Shown here piece after piece: positions 5,111 to 19,766 of a stretch of 54,384 nucleotides of DNA. Both the position numbers and the translations under genes were made by a program. Under the pieces are notes generated by a model, which searched no databases, was not told the DNA's origin, and saw only the letters and a program-made list of their open reading frames with translations. Every line of letters begins with the position of its first letter. Within the stretch, counting starts at the first letter, position 1. Origin of the DNA: Streptacidiphilus carbonis (GTDB lineage Bacteria > Actinomycetota > Actinomycetes > Streptomycetales > Streptomycetaceae); contig NZ_BBPM01000021.1 of the NCBI RefSeq assembly GCF_000787775.1, positions 65,332-119,715 on the forward strand, given 5' to 3'.

Positions 5111-5980
5111 ATGAGCTCTTCCCGCCGTGCCCGACCGCACAACTCCCGGTCCGGGCAGCACCGTTCGCGGCGCAAGCCGAGGTTCCGGCTGGCCCTGACC
5201 GGAGCCGCGGCCCTCGCCGTGATCGGCGGCGGCACGGCCTTCGCCTGCATGGACGTGCCGCAGGTGTCCGCAGCCTTCGGCGTCGGCAGCGGGCACGGGA
5301 CGCACCACGCCGGCGGGTCCGGTGCGGCAGGCGCGAGCGCCCGGCCCAGCCGCACCGCCGCCGCCCCCGCGATGGCGACGATCGCGCCGGCGCGCGGCAA
5401 GCCGAGCGTCCACCCGACGGCGAAGCCCAGCGGGAAGTCCTCGGCGAGGCCCTCCGCCTCGCCCTCGGCGCACCCCGACGCCCGGCCCACCACCGCCGCG
5501 CCGACCACCGCGGCACCGGCGTCCGCTCCGACCGCCACGTCGACCACAGCCGCGAACGGCGACGCGGTGCAGCAGGTACTCGCCCTGATCAACAGGGCCC
5601 GCGCCGCAGCCGGACTCTCCCCGTACACCCTCACCGCCGGACTGAACGCGAGCGCCGCCGCGCACAACAAGGTGATGGCGTCCGGCTGCGGCCTCTCGCA
5701 CCAGTGCCCGGGCGAGCCCGCCTTCGGTGACCGCGAGAACGCCGCCGGTGTGCAGTGGACCTCGGCCGGCGAGAACATCGGCGAGGGCGGCGGGGTCGAC
5801 TCCTCCGACGCCGCGATCGCCACCAGCGCGGTCGGCCTCACCCAGATGATGCTGGACGAGAAGGCCCCCGACGACGGCCACCGCAAGAACATCCTCAGCA
5901 GCAGCTTCACCCGCGTCGGCATAGCGGTCTACCGCGACAGCTCCGGCACGGTCTGGCTGACCCAGGACTTCGCCAACTAG
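5111..5980 (+). CDS. Secreted CAP-domain (SCP/PR-1-like) protein
   Basis: The 289-residue product has a basic N-terminus and hydrophobic segment (FRLALTGAAALAVIGGGTAFA) acting as signal or anchor, then a 100-residue Pro/Ser/Thr/Ala-rich low-complexity linker. A C-terminal CAP domain (about 155-289) begins QQVLALINRARAAAGLSPY. It keeps the AAAHNKVMASGCGLSHQC, SAGENIGEG and GHRKNILSSSFTRVGIAV blocks, including the histidine-containing cleft motifs, and ends WLTQDFAN. I chose the ATG at 5111 because ACGAGG lies about 8 bp upstream; a GTG at 5102 overlaps that site. CAP proteins are extracellular with varied roles, so the function here is not predictable. Confidence 0.9.
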   Translation: MSSSRRARPHNSRSGQHRSRRKPRFRLALTGAAALAVIGGGTAFACMDVPQVSAAFGVGSGHGTHHAGGSGAAGASARPSRTAAAPAMATIAPARGKPSVHPTAKPSGKSSARPSASPSAHPDARPTTAAPTTAAPASAPTATSTTAANGDAVQQVLALINRARAAAGLSPYTLTAGLNASAAAHNKVMASGCGLSHQCPGEPAFGDRENAAGVQWTSAGENIGEGGGVDSSDAAIATSAVGLTQMMLDEKAPDDGHRKNILSSSFTRVGIAVYRDSSGTVWLTQDFAN

Positions 5981-8422: not shown

Positions 8423-9750
8423 CCCTGCCCACCGACCGGGCCTGCGCCGGGACGATCGGTGCCGTGCACCAGGAGGCCGCCTGGGCGGCCGCCAACTTCG
8501 ACGTCGAGGTGCACCTGCTGGTGCTGGACTCCTCCGACCCGGGCACCTTCGCCGAGCACGCCGCAGCCGTCCGCGCGGCGCCGACGGTGCCGAACGTGGT
8601 GGTGCACCATCTGGACGAGGCCGCGCAGCGCGCGTTCCTGCGCGAGGCGATCGACCGGGCGGAGGTGCTCCAGCCGGACCTGGTGCTGGCGCTGATGCTG
8701 CCGAGCCGGTCCTCCTACGGCGCCTGCACCAACCGGGCGTTCCTGATCGCCAGGGCGCTGGGCTGCGAGTCGGTCCACCGCCGCGACTCCGACCTCCGCT
8801 ACCAGCTGCTGGACGGCGTCCCGGTCCATCCGGTCCGGCACGAACTGGCCTCCCTGGGCAGGCGCGCGAGCGAGGCGGCCGCGGGTGTCGACGAGATCGA
8901 CCTGGACCCGGCGTATGCGCACCGGCCGGTGTCCATGGTCGGCGCCTCCTTCGTGGGCGAGCTCTCCGTCGACATCGGCGAGGTCGAGCGGCTGGACCCG
9001 GAGGTCTACCACGACCTCGTCAGCCTGTGGGCGCCGGCGGACTGGTCGGCGGAGCAGAAGCGGGACCTGGTCGCCGAGTCGTTCCGCGGCGCGGGCAGCG
9101 AGACGTTCAGCGGAGACCGCGCGACGCTGACCGTGGTGGACCCGATGCGGGTGGACATGAGCAATATCAGTTTCCACCAGGTGCAGGAGCTGGTCCCGCT
9201 GCCGCCGGGGACCGAGACGATCGGCAGCGACTACTTCCTGATCCATCTGGTCCACGACGCCGGACTGCCCGGTGTGCTGCACAACCGGCACATCGTCAAC
9301 TACTACACCCCCGAGCGGCGCACCGACGCCGGGTTCGCCGCCTACCACGTGCGGCTGGTGAAGTTCTTCCTGTCGATGCTCTACTTCAACGACGTCTACG
9401 CCCGGATGGCGGCGGCCGGCGAGTCGCTGCTCGACGACCAGGACCGGGTGCGGCCCGATCTGATCGCCCGGTTCCTGCGGCAGAGCGCCGAACTCGACCG
9501 GGGCGAGAACGTCCAGCGGTTGCGCAGCCTGGACCGCTCCTACCGCAGACTGGGCGGCCGTTACGCGGCCTTCGCCGACCTGCTGGCCGTCCGCGGCCCC
9601 CGGCTGCTGGACGAGGCCCGGCGCGACATCGAGGACTTCGCCCTGCTGACCGAGGTCTGGGGTCCGCTGATGCGGGCTGCCGCGGTCACGTCCCTCGACC
9701 CGCGCACGTCTCCGGCGCCGGGACGGCAGCTGGAGCGCAGCCGCACATGA
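8404..9750 (+). CDS. DUF6271-like protein, possible GT-A-type transferase
   Basis: The 448-residue product begins MRRVCLTLPTDRACAGTI and has alternating beta/alpha stretches (VEVHLLVLDSS, NVVVHHLDEA, SYGACTNRAFLIARALGC). An HRRDSD motif (125-130) follows a hydrophobic strand, as the DxD motif does in GT-A glycosyltransferases. Later conserved-looking blocks are SMVGASFVGELSVDIGE, MSNISFHQVQE and IGSDYFLIHLVHDAGLPGVL. I recall this family as DUF6271 in streptomycete clusters; no function is established to my knowledge. It is embedded between the dioxygenase and the decarboxylase with overlapping starts and stops. The nucleotide-sugar idea is inference from the DxD-like motif only. Confidence 0.75.
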   Translation: MRRVCLTLPTDRACAGTIGAVHQEAAWAAANFDVEVHLLVLDSSDPGTFAEHAAAVRAAPTVPNVVVHHLDEAAQRAFLREAIDRAEVLQPDLVLALMLPSRSSYGACTNRAFLIARALGCESVHRRDSDLRYQLLDGVPVHPVRHELASLGRRASEAAAGVDEIDLDPAYAHRPVSMVGASFVGELSVDIGEVERLDPEVYHDLVSLWAPADWSAEQKRDLVAESFRGAGSETFSGDRATLTVVDPMRVDMSNISFHQVQELVPLPPGTETIGSDYFLIHLVHDAGLPGVLHNRHIVNYYTPERRTDAGFAAYHVRLVKFFLSMLYFNDVYARMAAAGESLLDDQDRVRPDLIARFLRQSAELDRGENVQRLRSLDRSYRRLGGRYAAFADLLAVRGPRLLDEARRDIEDFALLTEVWGPLMRAAAVTSLDPRTSPAPGRQLERSRT

Positions 9751-11003
9751 CGCACCGGAACGAGCCGCTGTCCGGAGTCATGTCCGACGCACTGTCCGAC
9801 GTACTGTCCGACGCCCTGTCCGCCGCCGCCGGGGACCGCATCTTCTTCGACCTCGACGGGATCGAGGCGCGCTACGCCGCCCTGCGGCGCGAACTGCCGC
9901 AGGTGGGAATCCGCTTCGCAGTCAAGGCCTGCCCGGTGGACGAGGTGCTGGCCTGCCTGGCGGGACAGGGCGCCGGCTTCGACGCGGCGTCCCCGCAGGA
10001 GATCGTCCAGGCGCTGCGGACCGGATTACCCGCCGGCTCCGTCCACTACGGAAACACCGTCAAGTCCGATCGGAACATCGCCGAGGCCCACCGGCTGGGT
10101 GTGCGCGACTTCGCCACCGACAGCGTCGCGGACGTCGCCGCGATAGCGCGCCACGCTCCCGGCGCGCGGGTCTTCTGCCGGCTGGCCACCAGCGGCGAGG
10201 GCGCGCTGTGGGGTCTCAGCAGGAAGTACGGGTGCTCGGCCCGGGAAGCGCCGGCGGTGCTGGCGGCGGCCCGGGCGGCGGGTCTGACCCCGGCGGGCCT
10301 GTCGGTGCACGTGGGCTCGCAGCAGATGACCGCAGGGGCCTGGCGGGACGCCTTCGACTCGCTGGCCGGGACGCTCGCCGCGCTGAACCGGCGCGGCATC
10401 CACCCGGACCACGTCAACCTGGGCGGCGGCCTGCCGGCCCTCGGCTACCTGGACCGGCACGGCCGGCCCCTGGAGCCGCCGCTGGACAAGATCCTGGCCG
10501 TGATCCGCGAGGGTGCGGCCCGGCTCCGGGAGGTGTCGGCCCGGCCGCTGGACCTGATCATGGAGCCGGGCCGGCACCTGGTGGCCGACCACGGCGCGAT
10601 CCGGGCCCAGGTGGCCCGGCTGACCGCCCGTCAGCAGCCGGGCGGGGAACGGGAGCACTGGCTCTACCTCAGCTGCGGCAAGTTCAACGGCCTGTACGAG
10701 ATGGACGCGCTGCAGTACCGGCTGGTCTTCCCCACCCATAGCCCGGACGCGCCCCGGGTGCCCGCCGTGGTCGCCGGTCCCACCTGCGACGGCGACGACG
10801 CCTACCCGCGCGGGCACAGCCCGGTCCCGGTGCCCCGGGACCTCGACTCGGGCGATCCGGTCTGGGTGCTCTCGGCCGGCGCCTACGCCACCAGCTACCT
10901 CACCCAGGGGTTCAACGGCTTCCCGCCGCTCGGCCACACCTGCGTGCGCGGCAGCGGGCTGCCCGCTGCGAGCGCAGAGAGCGCAGGGAGGCCGCGTGGC
11001 TGA
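9747..11003 (+). CDS. PLP-dependent decarboxylase, fold type III (ornithine/diaminopimelate decarboxylase family)
   Basis: The 418-residue product keeps the alanine-racemase-like barrel motifs: FAVKACP with the PLP lysine at Lys60, GFDAASPQEI, YGNTVKS, VHVGSQ, the phosphate loop NLGGGLP, EPGRHLVAD, CDGDD (347-351) and GAYATSYLTQGFNGF with catalytic Tyr380. This is typical of Orn/Lys/Dap decarboxylases of group IV. The ATG overlaps the upstream stop (ATGA). A second ATG at 9780 is possible because residues 12-27 form an SDAL/SDVL repeat encoded by a 12-bp tandem repeat. In this operon it probably decarboxylates a basic or modified amino acid, or a conjugate, to an amine. Confidence 0.9.
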   Translation: MTHRNEPLSGVMSDALSDVLSDALSAAAGDRIFFDLDGIEARYAALRRELPQVGIRFAVKACPVDEVLACLAGQGAGFDAASPQEIVQALRTGLPAGSVHYGNTVKSDRNIAEAHRLGVRDFATDSVADVAAIARHAPGARVFCRLATSGEGALWGLSRKYGCSAREAPAVLAAARAAGLTPAGLSVHVGSQQMTAGAWRDAFDSLAGTLAALNRRGIHPDHVNLGGGLPALGYLDRHGRPLEPPLDKILAVIREGAARLREVSARPLDLIMEPGRHLVADHGAIRAQVARLTARQQPGGEREHWLYLSCGKFNGLYEMDALQYRLVFPTHSPDAPRVPAVVAGPTCDGDDAYPRGHSPVPVPRDLDSGDPVWVLSAGAYATSYLTQGFNGFPPLGHTCVRGSGLPAASAESAGRPRG

Positions 11004-12873: not shown

Positions 12874-14526
12874 TCAGAGCAGGTCGAACTGCTCCCAGGT
12901 GCCGATGGCGGTGCGGTTGGCGATCAGCGGGCTGGCGCCGGCGTTGTCCGCGGTGACGTAGCAGTTGTTCACCAGGGCGAGCAGGCTGACCGTGCCGTTG
13001 GAGTTGTGCACCAGCTTGAAGGTCTCCCAACCGCCGACCGAGGTGCGGTTGGCGATCAGGGCCTTGGCCCCGGCGTTCTCGGCCGTCACGATCATGTTGT
13101 TGGCGTGGGCCCGCAGCGCGATGTTGCCGTTGCCGGCGTCGAGCTGGTCGAACTGCTCCCAGGGGCCGACCGCGGTGCGGTTGGCGATCAGCGGGTCCGC
13201 CCCCGCGTTGTCCGCGGTGACGATCATGCTGTTGGCGCGGGACCGCAGGCTGATGACCGTGGTGCCGCCGCTGCTGACGACGGGTTGGGTGGGCCGGGTG
13301 GCGGTCAGCGCGATCTGGCCCTTCAGCATCCTGCCGCCGTCCGCGGTGAGGCGGAGGTAGTAGTCGCTGCTGCAGGCGGTGCCGTCCTCGTCCAGGGCGA
13401 GCAGCCCTGATCCGGTGGGGACGCCGGCCGCGGTCGCGGCGGTCTTGGCGATCTGGTTGCCCTCGTTGAACTCGTCGAACATCGAGATGTAGATGCCCTG
13501 CGCGCCCACCCGCTTCATGTTGTAGAACTGCCGCCACATGAAGTCGCCGTGCGCGCGCTGACGGGCCGACAGGTCGCCGGGCAGCACGCACGGCTGGTAG
13601 TCGATGCCGTTGGCGTTGCAGTCGGCCTGGTCGCCGGTGTTGACGTTGGTGTAGAAGCTGTCGGAGTCCGCGGCGGTGCCGATCCGGCCGACCATCCAGG
13701 GCGAGATCATGTTGAAGGCGTGGTAGACGTCCAGGTAGCCGGCCCGGGAGTCGTTGACGCCGGTGCGCCAGTAGGTCGGCACCCCGCCCATCACGTAACA
13801 TCCCTGGCTCTTGAACCAGTTGACAACGTCGAGGCAGGTCGCCGCGTCCCACGGGTGGTTGCTGTCGTTGAAGCCGAACCCCCAGATGCCGACCACCGGC
13901 TTGCCGTTCTGGTGCGCGTAGGCGGAGGAGGAGGTGTAGGCGGACATCTTGTTGGTCCAGTCCGCCTTGATCTCCGCCTGCATGCTGGTCCAGCCGCTGA
14001 CGTCGTACATGATGTAGAACTTCACGCCGTGGCTCTCGGCGGAGGTGCGCACCAGGGCGGTGACGGCGTCCCGGATCGGCCCCTCGCCGCCGGTCGGGTT
14101 GAAGCGCTGGAGGGCGGCGGTGTCGCAGCCGTTCTGGGACATCCAGGCGAAGTGGGTGTCGGTGCTCTGGGCGTCGTAGTTGGAGTAGAGCTTGGCGGCA
14201 GCGCCGTTGCCGAGGGCGGCGAAGCCCGTCTGGTAGCTCTTGCTGTACTCCGACATGTCCGGCCAGGCCTTGATGCCGCTGTTGCTGGGGGAGGGCGGCT
14301 GGGAGGAGTTGGGGCTCCAGTGCCACCACGCGTTGATGGGGGAGTTGTCGCCGATGCAGGCGAACCAGCCCTGGTAGCCGACCGTGATCTTGCCGACCAC
14401 GTCCCCGGCCGGGCTGGCGGCCGGTTGCGCGGACACGGCGGCGCTGGCCGCGTCCCAGGCCGGCAGTGCGCCGACGGCGGTCCCGGCGACGGCGATGCCG
14501 ATGAATGTACGACGAGTCATGCCCAT
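12874..14526 (-). CDS. Secreted GH99/GH71-like glycoside hydrolase with C-terminal fascin-like beta-trefoil
   Basis: The 550-residue product has a Tat-type signal (MTRRTFIGIAVAGTAVGALP with the RR pair). A TIM-barrel-like catalytic region follows (about 45-400; VGYQGWFACIGD, KFYIMYDVSGW, KPVVGIWGFGF, GIYISMFDEFNEGNQIAK). The FDEFNEG block would hold the acidic catalytic residues. The last 125 residues comprise three repeats of roughly 45 residues with the motif NNMIVTAENAGAKALIANRT, as in fascin-type beta-trefoils that bind carbohydrate. The start is 14526 or the in-frame ATG at 14520; neither has a strong ribosome binding site. The enzyme probably attacks an alpha-linked polysaccharide outside the cell, consistent with the GH87-like neighbour. 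Confidence 0.82.
   Translation of the reverse strand: MGMTRRTFIGIAVAGTAVGALPAWDAASAAVSAQPAASPAGDVVGKITVGYQGWFACIGDNSPINAWWHWSPNSSQPPSPSNSGIKAWPDMSEYSKSYQTGFAALGNGAAAKLYSNYDAQSTDTHFAWMSQNGCDTAALQRFNPTGGEGPIRDAVTALVRTSAESHGVKFYIMYDVSGWTSMQAEIKADWTNKMSAYTSSSAYAHQNGKPVVGIWGFGFNDSNHPWDAATCLDVVNWFKSQGCYVMGGVPTYWRTGVNDSRAGYLDVYHAFNMISPWMVGRIGTAADSDSFYTNVNTGDQADCNANGIDYQPCVLPGDLSARQRAHGDFMWRQFYNMKRVGAQGIYISMFDEFNEGNQIAKTAATAAGVPTGSGLLALDEDGTACSSDYYLRLTADGGRMLKGQIALTATRPTQPVVSSGGTTVISLRSRANSMIVTADNAGADPLIANRTAVGPWEQFDQLDAGNGNIALRAHANNMIVTAENAGAKALIANRTSVGGWETFKLVHNSNGTVSLLALVNNCYVTADNAGASPLIANRTAIGTWEQFDLL
12877..13255 (-). repeat. Three in-gene repeats encoding the fascin-like trefoil
   Basis: Three DNA repeats of about 133-135 bp lie inside the 3' part of the glycosidase gene. 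The anchor GGTGCGGTTGGCGATCAG recurs near 12910, 13045 and 13178. Their close similarity suggests recent internal duplication or homogenisation of the beta-trefoil lobes. Confidence 0.8.
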
Positions 14527-14624: not shown

Positions 14625-16970
14625 TCAGGAGGCGAAGGCCCCGAATCCGGAAAGCTGTCCGGCCGGCCACCCGGTGTTGCCGGTGAAGGTCAGCCGCAGG
14701 TACCGGGCTGCGGTGCCGGACGGGAGGGTGACGGTGACCGTGTTGCCGGTGGCGGGATCGAAGGTGTGGCCCGCCGAGGCGGTCAGCGTGGTGTACGTGC
14801 CGTTGTCGGTGCTGCCCAGGACGGAGAAGGTCTCGGTGCGGGCGGACCAGGCGGTGGCCGGCGGAAGGGTCAGCACGAGCCGCCCCACTGCGTGGGTGGC
14901 GCCGAGGTCGACGGTCAGGCTCTGCGGGAAGGCGTTGTCGGTGCTCTCCCAGTAGGTGTCGGCATTGCCGTCGACCGTGTTGGAGGCGGTGTAGTTCTGG
15001 GTGTGGCCGGTGTCGGACACCGTCGCGCGCAGCGCCAGGTCGGTGCCGGCCGGCGGGGCAGTGGTAGGCGGCGCAGTGGTCGGCGGGGCGGTGGTCGGGG
15101 TGCCGCCGCCGGTCGGGGCGGGGCCGGTCGGCGGCAGCCCGGTCGGCGTCGGGAAGGCGGTGAGCACAGGTGCGGTGCTCCAACCGCTGTTGCCGCTGCC
15201 CTGGTTGATGGCGAAGGTGCCCGCGCTGTTGTTGGGGTAGCCGTAGTTGTACGCGCCCGCGACCTTGACGTTCGACGCGGTGAGCCCGCTGACCGAGGCG
15301 GAGCCCGTGGTCTCGGCCTGGAATACCGTGGTGCCGGTCCAGTTGACGGTGTTGTTGCTGAAGACGAGACCGGAAACGGCGTAGCCGGAGCCGCCGCCGG
15401 AGACGATCTCGAAGGCCTCGTAGGGGCTGTAGTAGACGGCATTGCCGCTGACGTTCACGGTCGCGTCGGTGAAGGCCGAGTTGAACGAGTCGAAGCGCAT
15501 GGCGCCCATCGCGTGGCCCCAGTTGGGGTTGAGCGCGCCGGTGCGGATCAGGGTGTTGTCGGAGACGGTGGTGGTTCCGGACAGCGGGGTGAACGGGGAC
15601 AGGAACGCCTGGTTGGAGACGGCGATCCCGCTGCCCAGGGCGTTGGTGTCGGCGATGGTGTTGCCGGTGACGGTGTTGCCGGAGCCGCCGTAGACCGCGA
15701 TGCCGTTGGCCAGCGTCGGCTGGACGACGGTGTTGTGGCTGAGGGTGATGCCGGTGTCGGGCGACGGCATGGACCACAGGGCCAGTCCGTCGTCGCCGGT
15801 GTTGCGCAGGAAGTTGCCGGTGACGGTGTCGTTGCTCGCGTTGCCGTTGAAGTTCAGGCCGTCGGCGTCGGTGGACAGCACGACGCAGTTCTTCACGGTG
15901 ATTCCGCTGTTGCCGTACTGCAGCCAGAAGCCGACGTTGGTGTCCTGGATCCACAGCCCGTCCACTGTCGCGCCGCTGCCCAGCGACCCGTTGACGGCGT
16001 TGGCGGAGCTGTCGTCGTGCCGGCCCACGGTGGAGCCGAGGATCGCGAAGCCGCTGAGGTTGACCGGGCCGGACACGGCCGAGCCGTTGTTGATGAACTC
16101 GTTGGTGGCCAGCTGCGAGTACCAGCTGCCCGCGCCCACGAAGGTGGCCTTGGCGACCTGGAGCGCGGAGGTGATCCTGAACGTGCCCTGCGGTATCCAC
16201 ACCGGCACGCCCGCCGACGCTGCGGCGGCGATGGCGGTACGGAAGGCGTTGGTGGAGTCGCCGCTGCCGCTGGCGTCCGCACCTTCGCTGACCACCGAGA
16301 CGGAGCCGGCGGGCTGGGCGGCCGGAGCGGCGACGTCGAAGAAGTCGGCGACGTCGAGGGTGTAGGGCAGGGCCGTGTCGCCCGCGTCCACCTGGAACTT
16401 GACGGTCGATCCGGCGGCCACCGTGGAGGGGAGCCGCAGCCGGGCGTCGTCGTAGAGCTTGTGGGTCCTGCTGCCGGTGATGCCGGTGCTGATGTAGCTG
16501 TAGGCGGAGGTGAGCGGGAGTTCCGTGCCCAGCCTGGTCCCGTTGACGTAGACGGAGAGCCTGCCCGAGGCGCCCTGCGGGACGGCGTAGTGCAGATCCA
16601 GCGCGTTGGCTGCGGACGACAGGGTGAACTGCAGGTACTGGCCCTGCGCGGTGAGCTGCACGGCCTGCCGGCCCGAGGCCTCGGTGGCCAGGTCTCCCTG
16701 GGTGTAGTCGGGACCGATCACCTTGCCGTCGGTGGCGGCCTGCGCGCCCTCGGCCTCGTACTCGGCCATGCCGGGGACGGCGGCCCCGCTCGTGCTCGCG
16801 GCGGCCGCGGCGGTGGCCGTGCCCGGAACGACGGCGGCGCCTGCCGGGTCCCACGGGGAGGTCGTGAGAAGTAACCCGAGGGTGGCGGCGGCCAGGGCGG
16901 TGGCTCCGGCCAGCGCCTGGGCCCGCAGTCCGGGCCGGTACTTGTGGCGGGAGCGGGAGGCGGTGTTCAA
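14625..16970 (-). CDS. Secreted GH87-like alpha-1,3-glucanase (mycodextranase) with CBM35-like and F5/8-type domains
   Basis: The 781-residue product has a signal sequence (LRAQALAGATALAAATLGLLL), an N-terminal CBM6/CBM35-like domain (about 68-215, MAEYEAEGAQ...) and a right-handed parallel beta-helix (about 225-625). The helix carries STDADGLNF (Asp368, Asp370) and NTGDDGLAL (Asp393, Asp394), matching the three-aspartate active site known for GH87. A Pro/Thr linker leads to a C-terminal F5/8-type C (CBM32-like) domain (about 650-781). The start is a TTG at 16970, supported by AGGAAGGA 5 bp upstream and by the signal peptide; further upstream the frame is proline-rich noise. The likely substrate is alpha-1,3-glucan or mixed alpha-glucan; other beta-helix families cannot be excluded. 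Confidence 0.82.
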   Translation of the reverse strand: MNTASRSRHKYRPGLRAQALAGATALAAATLGLLLTTSPWDPAGAAVVPGTATAAAAASTSGAAVPGMAEYEAEGAQAATDGKVIGPDYTQGDLATEASGRQAVQLTAQGQYLQFTLSSAANALDLHYAVPQGASGRLSVYVNGTRLGTELPLTSAYSYISTGITGSRTHKLYDDARLRLPSTVAAGSTVKFQVDAGDTALPYTLDVADFFDVAAPAAQPAGSVSVVSEGADASGSGDSTNAFRTAIAAAASAGVPVWIPQGTFRITSALQVAKATFVGAGSWYSQLATNEFINNGSAVSGPVNLSGFAILGSTVGRHDDSSANAVNGSLGSGATVDGLWIQDTNVGFWLQYGNSGITVKNCVVLSTDADGLNFNGNASNDTVTGNFLRNTGDDGLALWSMPSPDTGITLSHNTVVQPTLANGIAVYGGSGNTVTGNTIADTNALGSGIAVSNQAFLSPFTPLSGTTTVSDNTLIRTGALNPNWGHAMGAMRFDSFNSAFTDATVNVSGNAVYYSPYEAFEIVSGGGSGYAVSGLVFSNNTVNWTGTTVFQAETTGSASVSGLTASNVKVAGAYNYGYPNNSAGTFAINQGSGNSGWSTAPVLTAFPTPTGLPPTGPAPTGGGTPTTAPPTTAPPTTAPPAGTDLALRATVSDTGHTQNYTASNTVDGNADTYWESTDNAFPQSLTVDLGATHAVGRLVLTLPPATAWSARTETFSVLGSTDNGTYTTLTASAGHTFDPATGNTVTVTLPSGTAARYLRLTFTGNTGWPAGQLSGFGAFAS

Positions 16971-17304: not shown

Positions 17305-19326
17305 TCACCCCGGATGGGCGCCGAAGACCTGGTGCAGAATGTCCATGTACGCGCCGTGGCCGCTGGAGCTGGGCCAGGCGGTGGCCGATTCCACCGCGGT
17401 GCCCTCGCCCCACTCGTTGTAGGTCACGACGAGTTGGAACGGCGCGCCCGAAGTGGCGACCGCGGTGGCGTCGCTGCGGAACCGGGCCAGGTCGCGGGGG
17501 ACCGTCGGGGTGGCGGCGTCGTTCTTCCAGAAGCCCGGGGAGAGCACCGCCGAGTAGCCCTGTTGGATGTCCAGGCCGGATTCGTACTGATGCCAGCCCT
17601 GTGGTTGGTCGGCACAACTGCGGTAGCCGCCGAACACCTTGAGCACGACGTAGTACCCCTCGGTCCGGTTGGCCTGCGCCCAGCGGGTGGCCATGGCGCA
17701 GCCGTCGTCGCCCGAGGCGTAGACGAAGACGACCGGTTTCCCGTCGATGTGCAGCCAGGTCGGCTGGTCGGAGTACTTGCGCAGATAGCTGAGATCCGAC
17801 GTGATCGTCGCCACCGAGGGGTTGGAGTAGGCCTCCTCCTCGTAGTAGACGGTCCAGGAGAAGCCGAGCTTGGCCCCCTCGGACATCAGCAGCGGCAGCC
17901 GCTTGTCCTCGCGCTTGCCCGCGCCCCACCAGGAGGAGATGCCGGCTTCGAGCCCGCCGTACTGCATGTCCTTGATCTGACGGTCGACCGTGGCCGGGTC
18001 GTCGACGGAGTAGTAGCCGGCCGAGGGCTTGTACTTGCTGCCTCCGTTGGCGAAGTTCTCGCTGTACCACGGGTAGTAGAAGGCGGCCCGCACAGGCAGC
18101 TTGGCACTGCTGACAGTTGGCGCCTTCGCCGGTGCGACCGGCTTGGGGGCGGAGGCCTTCGCGGACGGCGCGGGCTTGCTCGGCGACGGCGGCTTGGCGA
18201 CCGGTGCGGACTCGGGGGCCGTCGCCGCCGCTCGGACCGAAGGAGCGGCCTGGGGGGCGTTCTTCGCATCGTGCCCGAACGCCCCGCCGGTGCAGGCCAC
18301 TGCTCCGCCCACAAGGACCACCGAGGCGGCGGAGGCGAGGACGGCGGCCTTGCCCAGGGACACGCCACCACCCCAGGCATGGGCCGAACGGCTTCCCGTC
18401 CGTGCAGCTCTGCCCGCGCCACGAGCGACCGTCCGGCCCGCCGCCGCGCTTCCGCCGCCGCCGATCGCCGCGCCGCCCGCCGCTGCGCCGACCACCCCGG
18501 ACCGCGCCAGGGTCAGCAGCACCAGCGGCACCGGTGTCAGCGCCAGCCCGGACAGCAGTCGTTCGGCCGGCACCGTCTGCCGACCCAGCCCGGCGCACTG
18601 CGCGCAGCCGCGCACATGACGGGCGATCCGCTTGCGCCACAGGCCGGCCGGTCGGCCGTCCCAGCCGCGCAGCACGGTGTCGTGCTCCGGACACCGGGGC
18701 ACCGCCTTGAGCGAGCGGACGACCGCCCGTGCCGTCTCCAACTGGGCCTTCATCCGCTGCACCCGGACCGCGGTCTGCGGCATCGGCAGGTCCATCGCGG
18801 CGGCCAGTTCACTGCGGGTCAGCTGGCCCGCGGCCTCCAGCCACCACAGCGACAGCAGTTGCCGGTCGCCCGCGTCCAGCCAGCGGGTGGCCTCGGCCAC
18901 CTCCTGGCGCTGGTCGGACAGGCTCAGCTCGGTGACCGTCAGGTCGACGAAGTCCGCCCCCGGATCGGCCAGCAGCGCCGTCTCCTCCAGGCCCTCGATC
19001 GGTGCGGTGGCCGGCTCGCCGCGACGGATCCGCCAGTGCTTGCGCACCTGCCGCATGGCGATCGCGACCAGCCAGGACCTGAACGCCTCCGGGTCCTGCA
19101 GCTTCCGCACGTCGCGGATCATCTGCAGCATGATCTCCTGCACGACGTCGTCGATGTCGGCGGGGGAGTTCAGCGCCCGGCCCACGATGTTGTAGACCAG
19201 CGGCAGGTAGTCGGCCACCAGCGCGTCCAGCGCCTGCTGGTCGCCGGTCCGAGCGGCCCGCACCACGTCGACCGGTGTCCACGGCCCGTCCGGCCGGTGC
19301 TGTCCACTGCGTGAGAACTGGGTCAT
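17305..19326 (-). CDS. ECF sigma factor fused to zinc anti-sigma motif, membrane segment and GH99-like domain
   Basis: The 673-residue product combines four parts. Residues 25-100 are sigma-70 region 2 (ALDALVADYLPLVYNIVGRA, DIDDVVQEIMLQMIRDV) and 145-205 are region 4 (LTRSELAAAMDLPMPQTAVRVQRMK). Residues 212-244 carry C-x24-H-x3-C-x2-C, the zinc-binding anti-sigma signature. Hydrophobic stretches follow at 256-290 and 324-345. A Pro/Ala/Lys-rich linker (355-410) leads to a 260-residue GH99-like domain starting AAFYYPWY, with NEWGEG (Glu638, Glu641) matching the GH99 catalytic pair. ECF groups with C-terminal carbohydrate-active domains are known in actinobacteria; the target and signal of this one are not. 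I use the ATG at 19326, after AGAGG at 13 bp; a GTG at 19365 is possible. Confidence 0.88.
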   Translation of the reverse strand: MTQFSRSGQHRPDGPWTPVDVVRAARTGDQQALDALVADYLPLVYNIVGRALNSPADIDDVVQEIMLQMIRDVRKLQDPEAFRSWLVAIAMRQVRKHWRIRRGEPATAPIEGLEETALLADPGADFVDLTVTELSLSDQRQEVAEATRWLDAGDRQLLSLWWLEAAGQLTRSELAAAMDLPMPQTAVRVQRMKAQLETARAVVRSLKAVPRCPEHDTVLRGWDGRPAGLWRKRIARHVRGCAQCAGLGRQTVPAERLLSGLALTPVPLVLLTLARSGVVGAAAGGAAIGGGGSAAAGRTVARGAGRAARTGSRSAHAWGGGVSLGKAAVLASAASVVLVGGAVACTGGAFGHDAKNAPQAAPSVRAAATAPESAPVAKPPSPSKPAPSAKASAPKPVAPAKAPTVSSAKLPVRAAFYYPWYSENFANGGSKYKPSAGYYSVDDPATVDRQIKDMQYGGLEAGISSWWGAGKREDKRLPLLMSEGAKLGFSWTVYYEEEAYSNPSVATITSDLSYLRKYSDQPTWLHIDGKPVVFVYASGDDGCAMATRWAQANRTEGYYVVLKVFGGYRSCADQPQGWHQYESGLDIQQGYSAVLSPGFWKNDAATPTVPRDLARFRSDATAVATSGAPFQLVVTYNEWGEGTAVESATAWPSSSGHGAYMDILHQVFGAHPG

Positions 19327-19445
19327 GACTATGGAGGGCCTCTGATCGGCGTCGCGATAACACAAATCTGCTCGCTCGGGCGGAGGTCCGCGTCGCGGCC
19401 GACCGCTCCGTGCGCCCGGGTGGACAACCCGACGACTTCGTCGCG

Positions 19446-19766
19446 TCAGCGTCGGCGGGGAAGACGACCCACGAGTTCGTGGATCTGCTCGAGCTGGACG
19501 GCGAGGTCCGTGGCAGTCGTCGCCGTCTCGGTCATGAGCCGTCCCACCACCGTTGCCGCCGGGTCAAGCGCCATTGCGCCCAGGCCGGCGAAGCTGAGAA
19601 GCAGGCTCTTGGACAGCAGCTCAGCCAGCTCGGCGAGCGCGGCCAGGGTCCGTGCGAGGTCTTTCGGTTGACTGAAGCCGGTGTCGCCGTGGGCGAGACC
19701 GGCCGTCAGCTCCCGCAGGTTGTCCCGCGCCTGCATCGCATGATGGCTGGGAATGCTGGTACCCAT
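19446..19766 (-). CDS. Small helical protein of unknown function
   Basis: The 106-residue product is mostly helical, with heptad-like hydrophobic spacing: NLRELTAGLAHGDTG, LARTLAALAELAELLSKSLLLSFAGLG and LAVQLEQIHELVGRL. There is no signal peptide, cysteine or known motif. The ATG at 19766 has AAGGAC about 13 bp upstream. It lies between the ECF gene and the amidohydrolase, all on the same strand, but with gaps of 119 and 168 bp. Coding character is good (third-position GC), but I do not recognise the family. Confidence 0.65.
   Translation of the reverse strand: MGTSIPSHHAMQARDNLRELTAGLAHGDTGFSQPKDLARTLAALAELAELLSKSLLLSFAGLGAMALDPAATVVGRLMTETATTATDLAVQLEQIHELVGRLPRRR

Follow-up and report, generated by a model that had tools for sequence, protein, structure and literature searches.

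Sigma factors of the extracytoplasmic function (ECF) groups ECF52 and ECF53 are fused to a zinc-finger anti-sigma domain and membrane helices, some of them with carbohydrate-binding or glycosyl hydrolase domains, and are presumably activated by proteolysis (PMC8999054, PMC5826349, PMC10766802). A gene of this design was analysed in a stretch of 54,384 nucleotides from Streptacidiphilus carbonis (contig NZ_BBPM01000021.1, positions 65,332 to 119,715; the whole stretch is called the window below). It lies at 17305–19326 on the minus strand, and its sigma factor, zinc anti-sigma domain, membrane anchor and GH99-type domain form one polypeptide. By architecture the protein appears to be of the ECF52/ECF53 type, the groups being compared by description: it has the zinc motif, a membrane helix (one is favoured) and a carbohydrate-related C-terminal domain. 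Since such fusions have already been described, its architecture is of a known kind, as an earlier note made from the sequence alone had stated; the observation in that note is confirmed and its interpretation partly supported.

The ECF52 member SCO4117 of Streptomyces coelicolor has the same succession of ECF sigma factor, zinc finger, transmembrane region, proline-rich extension and carbohydrate module; it differs in that its module is carbohydrate-binding and not of the GH99 type, in its role in development and secondary metabolism and in its proposed motif, CSGYN-17-SRHA, which is unlike the site found here (PMC5826349). ECF53 proteins (for example WP_030276194.1 from Streptomyces) likewise have a fused anti-sigma domain with membrane helices, and predicted glycosyl hydrolase domains occur in some ECF52/ECF53 proteins; the ECF53 passages cited mention no GH99 sensor, promoter or sensor–target rule (PMC8999054, PMC10766802). 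In the SigI/RsgI systems of Clostridium thermocellum the outer domains of RsgI (carbohydrate-binding modules, GH10 and others) sense glycans, as proposed here, and stepwise proteolysis frees the sigma factor for cellulosome genes; SigI and RsgI are two proteins, whereas sigma and anti-sigma share one frame in the window, and most RsgI proteins have an autocleaving periplasmic domain, with no zinc motif mentioned in the cited passages (PMC12203970). IutY of Pseudomonas putida (ECF243) also carries a membrane-bound anti-sigma part behind its sigma domain; it answers to a siderophore, and the cited account mentions neither zinc motif nor glycosidase (PMC8999054). Neither a GH99 sensor nor this promoter nor the sensor–target rule was reported among the matches listed from the open-access literature, which also included no further paper on fusions of AbfB or CAP sensors to sigma factors. 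The GH99 sensor type was not met in the ECF52/ECF53 descriptions as far as these were available, and the promoter-based hypothesis, which is open to direct testing, comes from this analysis.

The protein is read here as a one-protein glycan sensor whose released sigma factor drives its own gene and the adjacent secreted enzymes, with a probability of about 0.62. The zinc anti-sigma domain would keep the sigma regions inactive on the cytoplasmic side of the membrane, and one membrane helix followed by a flexible linker would lead to a GH99-fold domain outside the cell. This domain would bind and perhaps also cut a polysaccharide, for which microbial or fungal walls are the likeliest source. Its engagement would set the sigma factor free, probably through regulated proteolysis within the membrane or close to it. 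The released sigma would then start transcription at the TTTNTGTTAT-N19/20-CTCC site of its own gene, and the adjacent enzymes would be transcribed by read-through. Computation shows the domain layout, the fold, the conserved and genomically rare site and the recurring neighbour; the outward topology, the use of the site as a promoter by this sigma, the ligand, the proteolysis and the control of the neighbours are inferences. Release by conformational change, the zinc domain opening on binding by the outer domain, was one option proposed for ECF52 by Pinto and Mascher, the other being a proteolytic cascade (PMC5826349); without proteolysis, however, the tethered sigma factor would have to work at the membrane, and the characterized fused case, IutY, is cleaved by Prc and RseP (PMC8999054), and we regard this route as rather unlikely.

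Gene and domain layout

The features of the gene, all on the minus strand, are as follows.
17305–19326, minus: fused ECF sigma factor, whole gene, 673 amino acids (open reading frame, Pfam, TIGR02937, codon GC)
19333–19367, minus: promoter-like site ATTTGTGTTAT...CCCTCC, 6 nt before the ATG, leaderless-like (motif search, matrix)
19024–19221, minus: sigma region 2, residues 36–101 (Pfam Sigma70_r2, E = 1.9e-15)
18736–18915, minus: sigma region 4, residues about 138–197 (TIGR02937 span, helices in the predicted model)
18595–18693, minus: zinc anti-sigma motif C212-x24-H237-x3-C241-x2-C244 (sequence motif)
18490–18546, minus: first hydrophobic segment, residues 261–279, proline-broken, probably no membrane helix (hydropathy, model, comparison)
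18292–18348, minus: putative single transmembrane helix, residues 327–345, preceded by positive charges (hydropathy and charge)
18100–18291, minus: Pro/Ala/Ser/Lys linker, residues 346–409 (sequence)
17308–18099, minus: GH99-fold sensor domain, residues 410–673, probably outside the cell (Pfam, PDB, profile alignment)
17401–17418, minus: NEWGEG motif with two conserved glutamates, residues 637–642 (alignments)

The frame of 673 codons plus stop is single and intact, as the earlier note had claimed without stating the strand. Third-position GC is 0.91. With the gene cut into nine slices, GC peaks at this codon position in eight, while the Ala/Arg-rich residues 301–375 show roughly even values at all three positions. 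A hidden frameshift, which that note had named as a ground for refutation, was not seen in positional GC by slice or in the relatives, where the frame is open likewise in five (L008–L012) and in a sixth, plasmid-borne one (L097). No tandem repeats were found within the gene, and no phage-defence match was obtained at 0.001.

ECF regions 2 and 4 were both borne out, by different routes. Besides the Sigma70_r2 match, TIGR02937 (sigma-70 ECF) matches residues 32–197 (E = 3.5e-18, 65.8 bits against a cut-off of 42.9), and this match and a PDB alignment to SigE covering residues 21–196 support region 4, which also shows helices in the predicted N-terminal model [predicted template-modelling (TM) score 0.57]. 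In the profile check suggested earlier, Sigma70_r2 and GH99 matched, and Pfam region-4 models gave no match at E up to 1. The zinc signature is complete as first described and was found across the first set of 25 sigma genes (in L010 its spacing is printed as 17, the second Cys being nearer the His there); Pfam zinc-finger models gave no match to the protein at E up to 1.

The GH99 assignment of the outer domain held as well. Pfam GH99 (PF16317) matches residues 429–539 only (E = 1e-12, 48.3 bits against a cut-off of 33). A profile of seven relatives aligns colinearly with BtGH99, through a strong stretch with WWG and the following Glu and then through the NEWGEG stretch, which pairs with NEWHEG of BtGH99 and scores 0.033 on its own; an FYYPWY stretch aligns in order, not significantly. 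Both NEWGEG glutamates are invariant in the seven-sequence alignment, and the whole GH99-type relatives L008–L012 keep them together with the membrane segment, so that relatives devoid of both, the other ground for refutation named earlier, are not what was found. L026 is a GH99-like fragment lacking the sigma and membrane parts. The E333Q and E336Q variants of BxGH99 appear in PDB titles, and we take these two residues to lie within the E-x-x-E motif. The fold and the NEWxEG motif are common to the GH99 endo-alpha-mannosidases/mannanases (BtGH99, BxGH99, human MANEA); unlike these enzymes, the domain in the window is fused to a sigma factor, and it is shorter (264 residues against 320–362 in the matched chains).

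At L026 (7870–8435, Planotetraspora thailandica) a promoter-like site of score 22.0 stands before a lipoprotein-like signal peptide, with the second half of the GH99-like domain in another frame; this is perhaps a decayed free-standing relative of the GH99 sensor.

The part of the protein in front of the outer domain recurs as a chassis. Three paralogues in the same genome are alike over residues about 10–410 at 48–51%, and 22 loci were obtained by scanning a genome collection, L026 among them with the GH99-like fragment only. In relatives the same chassis precedes Pfam domains of the 'Glyco_hydro_cc' (which we take to be GH128-type), CAP, AbfB or right-handed helix kind, the last three presumably exported-type; Pfam types were obtained for ten members, ten more and L112, the remaining members being typed by sequence likeness. 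The outer domains of L002, L003 and L014 are alike and have no Pfam match. When 25 chassis sequences were placed on a tree, the six of the GH99 type formed one clade (100/98) covering Streptomycetaceae, Catenulisporaceae and Micromonosporaceae, and the sensor label changed 7 times against 14.6 when shuffled (near-copies included).

This interchange bears on a view that takes the GH99 domain chiefly for an enzyme anchored at the cell surface, with a sigma part that signals the state of the cell envelope and not a glycan. The retention of both motif glutamates in seven aligned sequences is as expected of an active enzyme, and PF16317 matches no other gene of the genome at 0.001; other members, however, have AbfB or CAP modules in the same place, which are not known enzymes, so the common function is more likely to be sensing and the surface-enzyme view is unlikely.

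Two variations on the family plan were observed. The domain of L002, L003 and L014, seen also at L090 (8807–9685) and without Pfam match, occurs both as a sensor and in a wall-anchor-type secreted protein. L027 and L028 (Micromonospora) are fused sigmas with neither membrane helix nor sensor; their sites (scores 21.4 and 18.7) lie behind the sigma gene and point back at it.

The promoter-like site

Most of the fused-sigma genes have a promoter-like site of the form TTTCTGTTAT-N19/20-CTCC. In the window its TGTTAT...CTCC form spans 19333–19362, and the sigma gene's is the single site there with a score of at least 20. The upstream motif search used 19 of the 25 sigma genes (near-copies L016, L019, L020, L022, L023 and L028 were left out). 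Its top dyad, GTTAT-N19/20-CTCC, occurred in 10/19, the maximum for any dyad in 100 shuffles being 6, and TGTTAT-N18..21-CTCC was present exactly in 9/19 (0.01 expected) and with at most one mismatch in 13/19 (0.15 expected). The strict pattern has two matches in the 8.46 Mb genome, both at fused-sigma loci, and TTTSNGTTRT-N19/20-CTCC has four against 0 in the control, again only at fused-sigma loci; two of these four places (C43 and the plus-strand one at C137) were outside the training of the matrix.

A set of 15 sites, including that of the window, served to train the matrix, which was applied unchanged to 16 plasmid relatives as an untrained test (16 of 18 records, namely H10 as L097 and 15 others; H15, a second record of the H14 strain, and H27, a partial match, were left out). 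A score of at least 20 within 150 bp before the sigma gene was reached in 11 of them; in the reversed controls one scored 18, one 19 and none 20 or more. L109 (19.7) and L112 (21.5) have the site behind the sigma gene. Among the ten first-set genes outside the training, the near-copies L016, L019 and L023 reach 20 before the sigma gene, L020 scores 19.8, and L002, L022, L025, L027, L028 and L029 do not reach 20 in that position. Allowing one mismatch in the genome search gave 86 places, of which 60 were scored by the matrix (no locus existed for the rest, and the position filter passed over places close to contig ends, for example L041 at C98:58); three scored at least 24, each at a fused-sigma locus.

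The site is probably the promoter read by these sigma factors. It could instead belong to another regulator that controls them: five of the 16 plasmid relatives have no site before the sigma gene, and nothing in the stretches scanned for L107, L110 and L111 reaches a score of 17. Against this, the extended pattern occurs nowhere in the genome outside fused-sigma loci (a search that was not blind), the window's site stands 6 nt before the ATG, and its two-block form and spacing fit what we understand to be typical of an ECF promoter; control by another regulator is accordingly held to be improbable.

Two further observations concern such sites. The best scored one-mismatch place outside the fused-sigma loci is L053 in the same genome (C126:57020–57049, matrix score 19.1), C126 not being known as a fused-sigma locus. 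Directly upstream of the window's site lies an open frame of 106 amino acids (19446–19766, minus strand), for which no homologue was found at 1e-8 in loci L001–L029.

Membrane topology

The earlier note had left the choice between one and two membrane helices open; a membrane segment is present, hydropathy alone permits either number, and one helix, with the glycosidase facing outside, is favoured from the charge pattern, the proline that breaks the first segment and the types of outer domain found among the relatives. Segments were measured in 25 members and counted in 23, L027 and L028 having none. Proline occurs in the first hydrophobic segment of 23/23 members and in the second of 2/23; in 22/23 the second segment has a higher net charge ahead of it (over up to 20 residues) than in the 20 residues that follow it (means +4.3 and −1.1), and the loop after the first segment holds on average 5.5 Lys/Arg. 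A two-helix protein with the GH99 domain in the cytoplasm, as an internal sugar sensor or enzyme, would agree with a first segment above the usual hydropathy threshold of 1.6 in 19/23 members (the second in 20/23), but it is disfavoured by the prolines and the charge pattern, would turn the Lys/Arg-rich loop outwards, and fits poorly with the CAP, AbfB and right-handed helix sensors of relatives, which we assume to be exported, and with the wall-sorting-like tail of L108, so that it is very improbable.

L108 (6001–8847, Streptomyces cyaneofuscatus plasmid) encodes a fused sigma of 949 amino acids with a helix-type domain that ends in LAETG, a hydrophobic stretch and RRKRS. We take this tail to be like a wall-sorting signal, which would place the L108 C-terminus outside as well; no anchor family was reported at 0.001. 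The protein might be anchored in the membrane and the wall simultaneously, an arrangement suggestive of a tension sensor.

Neighbouring enzymes and candidate targets

Two enzyme genes follow the sigma gene on the same strand.
14625–16970, minus: GH87 alpha-1,3-glucanase with a signal-peptide-like start and an F5/8-type C domain, no site (best PDB match 7c7d, 2.8e-165)
12874–14526, minus: P0003, weakly GH99-like hydrolase with a signal-peptide-like start and a carbohydrate-binding-type C-terminal domain, no site

The GH87 gene lies 334 bp downstream of the sigma gene and P0003 starts 98 bp beyond it. Of the GH87-like and GH99-like neighbours announced by the first reading, the GH87 enzyme is real, and P0003 is GH99-like only weakly: it has no PF16317 match at 0.001, a plasmid homologue reaches 0.00059 (under the curated cut-off), and comparison with the GH99 sensor gave a BLAST value of 0.002 in one case and an hhalign probability of 56%. 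At its C-terminus P0003 has a presumably carbohydrate-binding domain similar to one in a GH18 protein. One relative of P0003 stands divergent from the GH99-type sigma gene in Streptacidiphilus jeojiense (L009), and another follows the sigma gene after 107 bp in Streptomyces sp. NBC_00564 (L097; 69.6% over 93%), which brings such a gene to three of seven GH99-type loci, the window included; because the homologue adjoins a GH99-type sigma gene in two other loci, a functional link between enzyme and sigma factor is likely. Catenulispora rubra has a GH87 relative (40%) two genes behind the sigma gene, and GH5 enzymes occur in Catenulispora and Actinoplanes loci. The set suggests microbial or fungal wall glucans and mannans as the substrate theme. 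No terminator was reported between the sigma gene and the GH87 gene on the minus strand, which is weak evidence.

Several results weigh against the reading as a self-regulating glycan sensor that also controls its neighbours. The self-contained circuit proposed earlier is supported in part, by the conserved site at the sigma gene itself: motif and matrix searches found no site before GH87 or P0003, so that their control by the sigma factor, by read-through across the 334-bp gap, is deduced from gene order, and at four of the seven GH99-type loci (L008, L010, L011 and L012) no P0003 homologue was found in the flanks searched. The structural model of the GH99 domain is of low confidence (mean pLDDT 57.8, seven sequences), the whole-length structure matches of the N-terminal model are loose (TM 0.27 by query length, root-mean-square deviation 10–14 for the best), and with a first segment that passes 1.6 in 19/23 members the topology rests on charge and comparison. 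As for the promoter, beyond the five plasmid relatives without a site before the sigma gene, the strict pattern is as frequent as its backward control (2 and 2), only the location differing; with one mismatch allowed the sites are swamped by chance matches (N20, 31 against 46 in the control; N19, 55 against 20); and all four places of the extended pattern were known before it was written, so that this search adds only the absence of a fifth.

The site also stands before genes other than the sigma genes. In the same genome it precedes, at C43, a secreted-type gene with a wall-anchor-like tail (Gram_pos_anchor, just under the cut-off) whose domain resembles the sensor of the adjoining sigma paralogue (44% over 156 residues, 4.5e-34); at C98, a secreted-type protein adjoining a sigma paralogue; and at C137, a thaumatin-family gene divergent from the Glyco_hydro_cc-type paralogue. 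Elsewhere it precedes CAP proteins beside CAP-type sigmas (L102, L105 and L106; 50–55% to the sensor), GH10–GH62 enzymes behind AbfB-type sigmas (L109, with a small annotated open reading frame between, and L112) and, divergent from a helix-type sigma, a pectate lyase that carries a lectin domain (L029). Sensor and target do not match at L100 (CAP sensor, metalloprotease-like target with lectin), C98 (sensor of an unnamed domain, different target) or L024 (site before a small open reading frame only); L027 and L028, with their backward-pointing sites, are also outside the pattern, and the site is lacking at the CAP neighbour of L107 (45%) and at the wall-polymer-type neighbours of L110 and L111.

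At L092 (9703–10902, from C137) the thaumatin-family domain (frame 9749–10867) and an apparent signal peptide are in two overlapping frames, through a frameshift, an assembly error or decay. The window itself holds a CAP-domain stretch (5573–5971, plus strand; 32–37% to the relatives' CAP sensors) with no promoter-like site nearby.

These pairs hint, from sequence likeness, that the outer domain often resembles, or shares a target with, a secreted protein under the sigma factor's control. We tentatively propose a design rule, somewhat doubtful as it stands, in which the sigma factor switches on a secreted protein related to its own tethered sensor, so that the cell would gauge a polymer with a copy of the tool to be secreted; as the four paralogues of the genome use nearly one promoter, they might act as a cross-talking array in which several wall polymers each raise one shared programme. 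A promoter with testable targets and a sensor–target rule could make it possible to predict both the polymer sensed by a soil actinomycete and the proteins it will secrete. As a single protein whose outer domain can be exchanged, such a sensor would also be convenient for building engineered polysaccharide reporters.
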